This document shows, piece by piece, positions 8,609 to 12,522 of a stretch of 64,000 nucleotides of DNA. The position numbers and the translations under genes were made by a program. This DNA comes from an uncultured Saccharospirillaceae bacterium (GTDB taxonomy: Bacteria > Bacteroidota > Bacteroidia > Flavobacteriales_D > CAJJDF01). Below the pieces are notes generated by a model. It saw nothing but the letters and a program-made list of their open reading frames with translations, was not told the DNA's origin and made no database searches. Location: the NCBI GenBank assembly GCA_950054195.1, contig CATLPG010000001.1:62001-126000 (forward strand). The letters run 5' to 3'. Position 1 is the stretch's first letter, and each line of letters starts with the position of its first letter.

Positions 8609-9301
8609 ATGGCAAAAAACGCCTTTAGGAAAACGTCTATCGGACGAAAAGTTTTAATGGCCTTATCTGGTCTTTTCTTGATGTTGTTCCTCTTACAACA
8701 CCTTACAATAAACATGTTGTCTGTGATTAGTCCAGATATGTTTAACGAAGTTTCTCACTTTATGGGAACAAATCCAATCGTTCAATTTTTATTACAGCCA
8801 ATATTAATTGCAGCAATTATCTTCCATTTTGTGATGGGAATTGCGCTAGATATTATGAATAATAAAGCTAGAGAGGTAAAATATGCGTATAACAAGCCAA
8901 GTGCTAACTCAACTTGGATGTCGCGTAACATGATCATAACAGGTTTAGTTATTCTTGCCTTTTTAGGTCTACATTTCTACGATTTCTGGATTCACGAAAT
9001 AACCGAAAAATACATTGAAGGAGACATGTCTGGGCTCAATGCTCAAGGCGAATTCAGATACCATGAAGAGCTGGTAGAAAAATTCGTTGATATTTGGAGA
9101 GTAATTATTTATTGCATATCCTTTGTGTTATTAGCACTTCACCTTCAACATGGTTTTGCTTCAGCCTTTCAATCAGTAGGAGCTAGAACTGGAAAAAATA
9201 AAACGGCATTACAAAAGTTTGGTAACATATTTGCCTTTGTTGTTCCTGCTGGATTTATTTTCATCGCATTGTTTCATCATTTCACCCATGGTGCACACTA
9301 A
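8609..9301 (+). CDS. sdhC: Succinate dehydrogenase / fumarate reductase cytochrome b subunit
   Basis: Membrane anchor of respiratory complex II, passing electrons from the iron-sulfur subunit to quinone. It has 230 residues with five hydrophobic segments (about 17-37, 60-80, 108-126, 160-182, 208-228). Several His fall in or near the segments (H26, the His in the IIFHFVMG segment, HLQHGF, and a C-terminal FHHFTHGAH), as expected for the single-polypeptide, di-heme Bacteroidota-type SdhC. No separate SdhD is present or needed. It leads the operon: sdhA begins 13 bp after its stop. Confidence 0.93.
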   Translation: MAKNAFRKTSIGRKVLMALSGLFLMLFLLQHLTINMLSVISPDMFNEVSHFMGTNPIVQFLLQPILIAAIIFHFVMGIALDIMNNKAREVKYAYNKPSANSTWMSRNMIITGLVILAFLGLHFYDFWIHEITEKYIEGDMSGLNAQGEFRYHEELVEKFVDIWRVIIYCISFVLLALHLQHGFASAFQSVGARTGKNKTALQKFGNIFAFVVPAGFIFIALFHHFTHGAH

Positions 9302-9314
9302 TTTTTTTTGAATT

Positions 9315-11330
9315 ATGTCAACATTAGATTCTAAAATACCTAAAGGTCCGTTAAAAGATAAATGGACATCGTACAAGGATAAAATAAACTTGGTTAACCC
9401 TGCCAATAAAAGAAACATTGATGTTATTGTTGTTGGTACTGGTTTAGCAGGAGGTTCTGCCTCTGCTACGCTTGCCGAACTAGGTTATAATGTTAAAGCT
9501 TTTTGCTACCAAGATAGTCCAAGAAGGGCTCACTCTATTGCTGCTCAAGGAGGGATTAACGCTGCTAAAAACTATCAAGGAGATGGTGACTCTGTTTATC
9601 GTTTATTCTACGATACAGTTAAAGGTGGTGACTACCGTTCTAGAGAAGCTAACGTTTATCGTTTAGCAGAAGTTTCTGCTAATATCATCGACCAATGTGT
9701 TGCTCAAGGAGTTCCTTTTGCAAGAGACTATGGTGGATTATTGGATAACCGTTCATTTGGAGGAGTACTCGTATCAAGAACATTTTACGCTAAAGGACAA
9801 ACAGGCCAGCAGTTATTGTTAGGAGCATATTCCGCTATGAACCGACAAATTGCTAGGGGAAAAATCCAAATGCACAACCGTCATGAAATGTTAGATGTTG
9901 TTGTTGTTGATGGAAAAGCTAGAGGAATTATAGCTCGTAACTTAGTTACTGGTGAAATTGAAAGACATTCTGCTCATGCAGTTGTAATAGCATCCGGAGG
10001 ATATGGGAATGTTTACTTCCTATCAACAAATGCTATGGGTAGTAATGCTACTGCAGCTTGGAAGATACACAAAAAAGGAGCTTATTTTGCTAATCCTTGT
10101 TATACACAAATTCACCCAACCTGTATTCCAAGATCAGGAGACTACCAATCAAAACTTACTTTAATGAGTGAGTCGTTAAGAAACGATGGTAGAATTTGGG
10201 TTCCAAAAAACATGGATGATGTTAAAGCAATTAGAGAAGGTAAATTAAAACCAACTCAAATAGCTGAAGAAAATAGAGATTATTATTTAGAGCGTAGATA
10301 CCCAGCTTTTGGTAACCTTGTGCCAAGGGATGTTGCTTCTAGAGCTGCTAAAGAAAGATGTGATGCTGGCTACGGTGTTAATGCAACAGGAGAAGCTGTT
10401 TATTTAGATTTTGCTTCTGCTATTCAACGTTACGGGAAAGAAGAAGCCTTAGTTAAAGGACTAGATGCTAGCGATGCAAAACTAGTTAAAAAATTAGGTC
10501 AAGATATAGTAAAAGCTAAGTATGGAAACTTATTTCAGATGTATGAAAAAATTACAGATGACAACCCATACGAAACACCAATGATGATTTACCCTGCTGT
10601 TCACTACACGATGGGAGGTATTTGGGTAGATTACAACTTAATGACAACCGTGCCTGGTTTATATGCTATTGGAGAGGCTAACTTCTCTGATCATGGAGCA
10701 AACAGACTTGGAGCTTCTGCTTTAATGCAAGGGTTAGCTGATGGTTATTTTGTTTTACCATATACTATTGGTGATTACCTATCAAATGACATCAGAACTG
10801 GTGAAATATCTACAGATTCTCCAGAATTTGAAGAAGCTGAGAAATCAGTTAAAGATACAATTGAAAAATTTATCAATAACAAAGGTTCTCATTCGGTTGA
10901 TTACTTCCACAAAAAGCTTGGTAACATTATGTGGAACAAGTGTGGTATGTCTAGAAACGAACAAGGCTTAAAAGAAGCTATCCAAGAAATTAAAGAATTG
11001 CGTGAGCAATTTTGGAAAGAAGTGAATGTTCCTGGAACAGCAAACGAATTTAATAAAGAGCTAGAAAAAGCAGGTAGAGTTGCTGATTTTTTAGAATTAG
11101 GAGAATTATTTGCTAAGGATGCACTACACAGAACGGAGTCTTGTGGAGGTCACTTTAGAGAGGAATCTGTTGAAACTGATGGCGAACAAAAAGGTGAAGC
11201 TTTAAGAGATGATCAAAATTTTGCTTACGTAGCTGCTTGGGAATATAAAGGAGAGCCAAGCGATGCCGTTTTACATAAAGAGCAATTAGAGTTCAATGAT
11301 ATTGAGCTTAAGCAGAGGTCTTATAAATAA
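9315..11330 (+). CDS. sdhA: Succinate dehydrogenase flavoprotein subunit
   Basis: Oxidises succinate to fumarate in the TCA cycle, or the reverse as fumarate reductase. The 671-residue subunit carries the FAD-binding [10 protein letters not shown] motif (residues 41-50). [12 protein letters not shown] follows, where H73 is the expected site of covalent FAD attachment. HxTGG-type active-site elements are later in the chain ([23 protein letters not shown]). The C-terminal SCGGHFR and the long chain are of the Bacteroidota/epsilonproteobacterial class. It should face the cytoplasm, bound to SdhB. It sits 13 bp after sdhC. The junction with sdhB is interrupted by an inserted four-helix-bundle gene. 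Confidence 0.96.
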
Positions 11331-11338
11331 GCTAACTT

Positions 11339-11356
11339 GATGACTAGTTGATTAGT
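11339..11356 (+). repeat. Left imperfect inverted repeat flanking the four-helix-bundle gene
   Basis: GATGACTAGTTGATTAGT begins 8 bp after the sdhA stop. It matches the reverse complement of 11739-11756 at 14 of 18 positions, plus one G-U wobble in RNA, so the two sequences could pair in the mRNA and bracket the inserted gene. It contains the self-palindrome ACTAGT. Confidence 0.55.
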
Positions 11357-11362
11357 ATCAAA

Positions 11363-11743
11363 ATGAATAAATTTCAATCACATAAAGAATTACTCGTTTG
11401 GCAAAAAGGTATATCCCTTGTCAAAAAAATTTATTTATTATGTGAAGAAATGCCAAAAAATGAAGTTTTTGGTCTACAAAATCAACTTAAAAGAGCTGCT
11501 GTTTCAATTCCATCAAATATTGCTGAAGGATTTGGAAGAAGTTCGAATAAGTCATTTGCTCAATTCTTGAAAGTGGCACGTGGATCATTGTTAGAAATAG
11601 AAACGCAAATTATTATAGCAAAAGAATTAGAGTTTATTTCTGAGGAAGATTTTGATAATATAAACTTGATTATAGAAGAAGAACATAAAATGTTAAACTC
11701 ATTTATTAGGTCGATTGAAAGTAACTATATTAATCAAAACTAG
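11363..11743 (+). CDS. Four-helix-bundle protein (23S rRNA intervening-sequence protein / Avd-like family)
   Basis: A 126-residue basic, all-helical protein with the family signature FQSHKELLVWQKGISLVKKIY near the N-terminus. AAVSIPSNIAEGFGRSS (about residues 50-66) and FLKVARGSLLEIETQI follow. This family is known from ORFs inside 23S rRNA intervening sequences and, as Avd, from diversity-generating retroelements; it binds nucleic acid as a pentamer. No reverse transcriptase lies in the window. I chose the ATG at 11363 over an in-frame TTG at 11348 because the family begins at this Met and the TTG lies in the flanking repeat. It splits sdhA from sdhB, has flanking inverted repeats, and looks like an acquired element. 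Cellular function unknown. Confidence 0.88.
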   Translation: MNKFQSHKELLVWQKGISLVKKIYLLCEEMPKNEVFGLQNQLKRAAVSIPSNIAEGFGRSSNKSFAQFLKVARGSLLEIETQIIIAKELEFISEEDFDNINLIIEEEHKMLNSFIRSIESNYINQN

Positions 11744-11756
11744 TTTACTAATCATC
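11739..11756 (+). repeat. Right imperfect inverted repeat flanking the four-helix-bundle gene
   Basis: ACTAGTTTACTAATCATC overlaps the stop codon of the four-helix-bundle gene (TAG at 11741-11743) and ends 22 bp before the sdhB ATG. It is the partner of 11339-11356. Confidence 0.55.
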
Positions 11757-11778
11757 TAATACACCAATACACTATAAA

Positions 11779-12522
11779 ATGAATCTTACATTAAAAATTT
11801 GGAGACAAAAAGGACCTAAAGACCAAGGTAAAATGGTCGATTATAAGGTTTCTGATATTTCAGAACACATGTCCTTTTTAGAAATGTTAGATGTTTTAAA
11901 CGAACAACTGATTGAAAAAGGTGAAGAGCCTGTAGCTTTTGACCATGATTGTAGAGAAGGAATATGTGGAATGTGCTCATTATATATTAATGGTGAAGCG
12001 CATGGTCCAGATAGGGGAGTTACAACATGCCAACTACACATGAGAATGTTTAATGATGGAGACACCATATATATAGAGCCTTTTAGAGCTAAAGCTTTTC
12101 CTATCATTAAAGATTTAACTGTTGATAGAAGTGCTTTTGATCGTATCCAACACGCAGGTGGATATGTATCCGTTAATACATCAGGAAACACACAAGATGC
12201 TAATGCTATTCCAATTCCAAAAGATGATGCAGACAAAGCATTTGACGCTGCTACTTGTATTGGTTGTGGTGCTTGTGTAGCTAGTTGTAAAAACTCTTCA
12301 GCTATGCTTTATGTATCTGCCAAGGTTTCGCAATTTGCGTTACTGCCTCAAGGACAAATAGAAGCCAAAGACCGTGTGCTAAACATGGTAAACCAAATGG
12401 ATTTAGAAGGATTTGGGAACTGTACAAATACTGGTGCTTGTGAGGTAGAGTGTCCAAAAGGAATTTCGCTTGAAAACATCGCTAGAATGAATAGAGAGTT
12501 CTTAAAAGCATCCATAAAATAA
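11779..12522 (+). CDS. sdhB: Succinate dehydrogenase / fumarate reductase iron-sulfur subunit
   Basis: Carries electrons from the flavin of SdhA to the quinone site in SdhC. The 247-residue protein has the N-terminal [2Fe-2S] cysteines in [10 protein letters not shown] plus a further Cys in GVTTCQ. The C-terminal domain has two cysteine clusters, [13 protein letters not shown] and [14 protein letters not shown], which ligate the [4Fe-4S] and [3Fe-4S] centres. The last gene of the sdh unit, it is displaced 448 bp from sdhA by the four-helix-bundle insertion. It should still be co-transcribed, since no terminator is visible in the gap. Confidence 0.95.

Follow-up and report, generated by a model that had tools for sequence, protein, structure and literature searches.

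Previous studies have described the intervening sequences (IVS) of 23S rRNA in Coxiella, Leptospira and Salmonella as insertions with IVP/S23p open reading frames and complementary ends, which are cut out by RNase III and whose mobility is unexplained (PMC4990558). Separately, short tandem repeats of 7 nt have been described in several bacteria. Heptamer arrays have the unit GGGAATC in Xanthomonas, with 70 and 75 inverted pairs, and GGGGA(T/C)T in Nostoc (PMC4692102). Heptanucleotides of Calothrix are referred to here as cited in PMC4692102, and TAACTGA repeats are present in Beggiatoaceae, cyanobacteria and Bacteroidetes (PMC4679880). An IVP gene between arrays is absent from the texts of PMC4692102 and PMC4679880, neither of which mentions S23 or four helix, and no paper linking IVP genes with heptamer arrays was found in a search of openly accessible literature.

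The window analyzed here, a stretch of DNA of 64,000 nucleotides, contains an IVP gene within an sdh operon. Judged from sequence comparisons, the 448-bp spacer that holds this gene is probably (a probability of roughly 0.55) one copy of a widespread mobile DNA element with IVP as its single gene, the terminal arrays of which would evolve in concert at the DNA level. The likeness to the 23S rRNA IVS lies in the protein family, the single ORF, the complementary termini, a sporadic distribution, recurrent insertion sites and unexplained mobility. In contrast to the IVS, the element is located in mRNA-coding operons, its ends are 7- or 8-nt tandem arrays with a copy-specific unit, and there is no sign of selected RNA pairing. 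The described heptanucleotide arrays are similar in their degenerate, intergenic 7-nt tandem unit, and in Xanthomonas also in their inverted pairs, with the window copy itself having a period of 8. However, the papers treat one unit per genome, whereas the unit found here is specific to each element.

The sdh operon of the window

A sequence-only reading of the window had described a short gap between sdhC and sdhA and a much longer one between sdhA and sdhB, filled by a single four-helix-bundle gene. Both points were confirmed. The gaps are 13 bp and 448 bp, the three sdh genes are co-directed, and the longer gap is filled by one gene that matches PF05635 (E=6e-39) (Table 1). In profile searches, the protein scored 132.9 bits against PF05635 (cut-off, 33.8), with positions 1-106 of 106 covered, and 126.2 bits against TIGR02436 (cut-off, 24). 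The nearest solved structure is 2gsc (XCC0516). There were no Rfam matches in the window, and the gene is located between sdhA and sdhB, not inside 23S rRNA.

Table 1. Features of the sdh region (positions in the window)
Feature	Position	Strand	Basis
sdhC-like membrane anchor gene (host operon)	8609..9301	+	ORF; named by the sequence-only reading and gene order
sdhA (host operon, upstream neighbor)	9315..11330	+	ORF; C-terminal part used as query for the homologous junction in relatives
Left terminal array, degenerate octamers GATGACTA GTTGATTA GTATC, TAG recurring at 8-nt spacing	11339..11359	+	Sequence; inverted match to right array
IVP gene, 126-aa four-helix-bundle protein, PF05635 / TIGR02436 (ATG to stop)	11363..11743	+	Profile matches; solved relative 2gsc
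Right terminal array, degenerate octamers CTAGTTTA CTAATCAT CTAATACA CCAATACA	11740..11772	+	Period 8; complementary to left array
sdhB (host operon, downstream neighbor)	11779..12522	+	ORF; homologues in 59/60 relatives

Imperfect inverted repeats of 18 nt had also been proposed to bracket the gene. The match of GATGACTAGTTGATTAGT (11339-11356) to the reverse complement of 11739-11756 was indeed 14 of 18 Watson-Crick pairs, but there are two wobble pairs rather than the one that had been counted. The inverted repeats are above chance: their score was equaled by 9 of 5,000 dinucleotide shuffles of the two spacers, and an ungapped 14/18 inverted match was reached by 13 of 1,500 shuffles. These 18-nt repeats are portions of longer, degenerate octamer arrays at the ends of the copy. 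At a lag of 8, 19 of 30 positions match in the right array (equaled by 2 of 2,000 shuffles), and this arm overlaps the stop codon of the IVP gene. In agreement with the suggestion that the repeats could pair in RNA, a computed fold is predicted to join both ends around the ORF (z=-2.3). The array match of the window copy was modest compared to that of other copies (rank 15 of 84). Alone, the window copy is unremarkable, and its reading rests on the pattern of the family.

Matching ends within each copy

In order to compare ends, the left flank of each full-length copy was aligned with the reverse complement of its own right flank and with partners from other copies. Own-end complementarity averaged 20.0 over 163 copies from Bacteroidota and other phyla, and the mean was at most 12.2 in 2,000 permutations with random re-pairing. 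In 49 of these copies the own end was the best-scoring partner, in 100 it ranked within the top 5%, and the same result was seen in separate copy sets. Ends of different copies scored ∼11.5 when paired, which is the level of chance, and the terminal inverted repeat is not conserved between copies. The architecture of the window copy, with a 7- or 8-nt unit repeated in inverted arrays at both ends, is common to 162 other copies. Tandem periods of 7 and 8 were detected in 24% and 8% of the flanks, respectively, compared to ∼1% in control stretches 440-560 nt away, and nothing was found at periods of 6 and 9 in the flanks.

The units include GGCAATA, ACTAGTG, GGATCGC, CTAATGTG, TTCAAATG and GTTGACGA, and separate copies within one genome carry different ones. 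Copies on cyanobacterial plasmids and IMG/VR virus contigs follow the same rule (24.1 for own ends versus 11.1); a Nostoc plasmid copy, for example, has GGGAGTA at both ends. The ACTAGT-rich flanks that the sequence-only reading anticipated at other copies were not seen; units vary by copy, and only the inverted-array architecture is common. A shared target or end motif was likewise rejected, with only a loose TAG/AAG preference in left arrays. Two copies from Clostridia MAGs (L172 and L218) have a near-identical long terminal stretch with TTAGC arrays and GCGGGACACCCGCACCCGA, the sole case seen of ends that are alike between genomes.

The matching of arrays within individual copies held even at one junction. 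When different families had a copy at one and the same junction, scores were 12 to 24 for own ends and ∼10, which is chance, for cross-paired ends. Even G007 and G134, which are of one genus, differ in the unit of their sdh copies, and each copy is self-complementary. On these comparisons, array units change fast yet jointly at both ends of one copy.

An alternative is that heptamer or octamer arrays come first and IVP genes home to them, inserting into or between members of an independent class of intergenic repeats like that of cyanobacteria, Xanthomonas and Beggiatoaceae. Abundant heptamer arrays have been described (PMC4692102 and PMC4679880), and solo arrays without IVP were found at the purF site of G061 and G088 and elsewhere in G051, which indicates that arrays need not belong to the element. 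Homing nevertheless seems unlikely. Arrays away from IVP were rare (5 in 400 kb; 0 in 200 kb of G007, a region with 2 IVP copies; none at a score of at least 16 in the window), the units differ among copies of one genome, and the solo arrays may be scars of IVP loss, as the paired repeats at the sdh junction of G019 suggest.

The octamer TTTGAACA of G051 was present both in long solo arrays (L240:2906-2957 and L235:293-339) and as the right array of IVP copy L109, and thus IVP is not required for the spread or persistence of a unit. A search of 400 kb for other cargo between inverted arrays yielded no second gene family and only a terminator within one pair. The same genome has an inverted pair of 8-nt arrays without an IVP gene at L236:9368-9519 (G051:C2:429368-429519), which surrounds a hairpin resembling an intrinsic terminator between convergent genes.

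The sequence-only reading had related the matching ends to pairing and excision of RNA. If pairing in the mRNA kept the ends complementary, then tolerated transition mismatches should favor G-U over A-C. Among 587 transition mismatches in the paired ends of 143 copies, 298 were G-U and 289 were A-C (observed ratio, 1.03; expected, 0.98; P=0.56), and the isolated mismatches flanked by pairs (n=181) comprised 97 G-U and 84 A-C. Terminator-like hairpins from the same data with similar scoring, which served as a positive control, had 16 G-U and 4 A-C in a small set of only 20 hairpins. These counts gave no support to the idea that the ends match because of pairing or excision at the RNA level. The ends can pair in RNA, yet selection on that pairing is not visible, and the sequence evidence favors concerted evolution at the DNA level.

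It also seems unlikely that the IVP segment is an RNA element of the IVS type located in an mRNA. In that case, pairing of the ends in the transcript would form a stem for cleavage by RNase III or a different nuclease, which would either release the segment or divide the polycistron, as happens when 23S rRNA is fragmented. The predicted fold around the ORF and the strong sense bias of the copies would be expected of such an element, and the protein family and complementary termini are also found in the 23S rRNA IVS that RNase III cuts (PMC4990558). However, neither the 587 transition mismatches nor the 181 isolated ones had the excess of G-U over A-C that terminator-like hairpins have. Furthermore, the arms are arrays that grow freely on one side, as in L246, in which the left array is expanded to dozens of units compared to L245, and none of the 20 copies tested outside Bacteroidota was located in rRNA.

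Insertion, dispersal and turnover

The insertion into the operon supposed in the sequence-only reading was supported by relatives with an empty site. The sdhA-sdhB junction of a same-genus relative is 14 bp without an insert. Among 49 sdhA-sdhB junctions, from the window's genome and 48 relatives of the order, 5 had an IVP gene, 1 had a different insert, and 43 were 5-123 bp. The five occupied junctions are from five different families of the order. The different insert (L077; G023:C15:20550-21650) is 651 bp and resembles a nucleotidyltransferase (MNT) plus HEPN pair, and thus this junction looks like a hotspot for insertions in general. Among the nearest 80 database IVP copies, 24 are at the sdhA-sdhB site. 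Database copies at this site extend from Polaribacter, Arenibacter, Lacinutrix and Capnocytophaga to Dysgonomonas, Parabacteroides, Bacteroides and Prevotellaceae, as far as Bacteroidales.

The genome of the window has three IVP copies, each of which splits two subunit genes of one enzyme (sdhA/sdhB; fadB/fadA, alpha/beta of the fad operon; and scoA/scoB). One to 10 copies per genome were found in 39 of 60 relatives, some of the copies having stops. Recurrent junctions include fadB-fadA, sufB-sufC, hmgA-hppD, thiolase-paaY-like, deoC-aldehyde dehydrogenase and, in Flavobacterium, gmk-nadD. The copies have a strong bias in orientation, with 112 in sense between two co-directed genes and 10 antisense. 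On Pseudanabaena and Anabaena plasmids (L324 and L327), an IVP gene is located between cas6 and cas4 of a CRISPR-Cas operon, again a recurrent junction.

In a tree of 89 copies, those from the same site grouped together (12 changes versus 23.1 in shuffles). The five sdh copies were in one clade (97/89), together with one G002 copy from another site. The identities of sdh-site IVP proteins and of SdhB were correlated (Spearman 0.51; Mantel 0/999), and therefore much of the history at this site may be vertical. The hmg and deoC sites are occupied by unrelated IVP clades. In L194 and L216, SdhB is 98% identical, the IVP proteins are only 54% identical and the arrays differ, with DNA identity breaking off between the sdhA stop and the sdhB start. 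A duplicate at two sites of G008 (L101 and L119) is 79% identical over 506 bp, and homology stops within the arrays. A second dispersed palindrome, similar to CGCTCCGCTAATCGCGCGGCAGCG, adjoins both of these copies in opposite orientations.

Possible scars of former copies are the paired arrays at the G019 sdh junction, which lack IVP, and the short solo arrays at purF in G061 and G088. In a search for empty sites at purF-kdtA, gene order differed in most congeners and the boundaries were unreadable; the short solo array is retained in two congeners. Taken together, insertion into junctions with empty and occupied alleles, dispersal, the duplicate within one genome and the different occupants of near-identical sdh contexts support the mobility that had been proposed for the element. 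The sequence comparisons revealed no transposition event and no mobilizing enzyme. No target-site duplication was found, the empty junctions being short and too diverged to read one.

An ordinary host operon gene that is inherited vertically with frequent loss, e.g., a regulator setting the sdhA to sdhB ratio, would fit the clustering of sdh-site copies in the tree, the purifying selection on the protein (see below), the correlation with SdhB and the three split enzymes of the window's genome, but it is very unlikely because presence is sporadic (5/49 junctions), the family is found in unrelated operons, one site can hold unrelated clades (hmg and deoC), IVP has been replaced under a 98% identical SdhB, and copies occur on plasmids and viral contigs.

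The putative element and its relation to described systems

The mobile element favored here would be made up of a single IVP gene (PF05635) and, on either side of it, an array of a 7- or 8-nt unit, the two arrays being inverted relative to each other. It would be inserted in sense within an operon and presumably transcribed by read-through from the host promoter. The arrays would be kept alike by events at the DNA level and not by selection for mRNA pairing. Candidate events are slippage within an array combined with copying between the inverted arms, via template switching or gene conversion. Alternatively, both ends may be renewed as the element moves. Lineages would mostly stay for a long time at one operon junction; losses would be frequent, and now and then a lineage would be replaced by a different one or would jump.

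The protein may contribute to this process. In eight close pairs of IVP copies other than that of the window, dN/dS was 0-0.18, which demonstrates purifying selection in these related copies and indicates that the IVP protein is not passive filler. The IVP family forms oligomers and is related to Avd. Action of IVP on the arrays of its own element is the simplest putative link between a conserved protein and ends that change fast yet remain self-consistent. It is possible, though this part of the proposal is weaker, that an oligomeric, Avd-like IVP binds its own terminal arrays and aids the persistence or movement of the element, with the movement itself relying on enzymes of the host or on others provided in trans.

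Candidate partner enzymes were considered. The statement of the sequence-only reading that a reverse transcriptase is lacking was accurate for the locus: none adjoins the window IVP gene, and the genome has a single match, at G000:C112:367-987, on a different contig from that of the window (C1). As far as the assemblies show, 81 of 152 IVP copies are in genomes without a reverse transcriptase match and 42 of 152 in genomes without a Y1 transposase match, and both enzymes were rejected as obligatory partners. The presence of either was associated with IVP (Fisher P=0.02 for reverse transcriptase and 0.001 for Y1), with genome size and ancestry as confounders.

The Avd proteins of diversity-generating retroelements (bAvd, PF22296) are distantly similar to IVP in sequence and belong to the same fold family, but the window protein is below the cut-offs for them (21.6 bits versus 40 for bAvd; 25.8 versus 80 for DivGenRetAVD). 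In further contrast to these retroelements, no reverse transcriptase adjoins the window gene, and a template or variable repeat was not seen. Insertion sequences and MITEs are likewise small, with inverted ends and dispersed copies, but in the element described here the terminal sequence matches within a copy only, and there is no transposase. No described mobile element was found in which the ends differ between nearly all copies but match within each.

More tentatively, these elements could be a new class of mobile element, in which the terminal inverted repeats are a copy-specific 7- or 8-nt array and not a fixed sequence. Both ends would be rewritten together, perhaps through snap-back copying of one from the other as the element moves, and an IVP oligomer would act on them. 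If so, the same process might be the source of the heptamer arrays in cyanobacteria, Xanthomonas and Bacteroidota, and the rRNA IVS would be a special case.

IVP genes rank among the most frequent small genes of Bacteroidota that lack an explanation, and the question of how IVS elements spread is decades old. The comparisons show that the family usually resides in operons, not in rRNA, and they tie IVP genes to heptamer repeats that had previously been reported without explanation. The rule of matching the two ends of one copy, rather than the ends of different copies, can be put to the test in any sequence. Terminal repeats of the kind suggested by it would escape the usual mobile-element finders, which seek shared ends.
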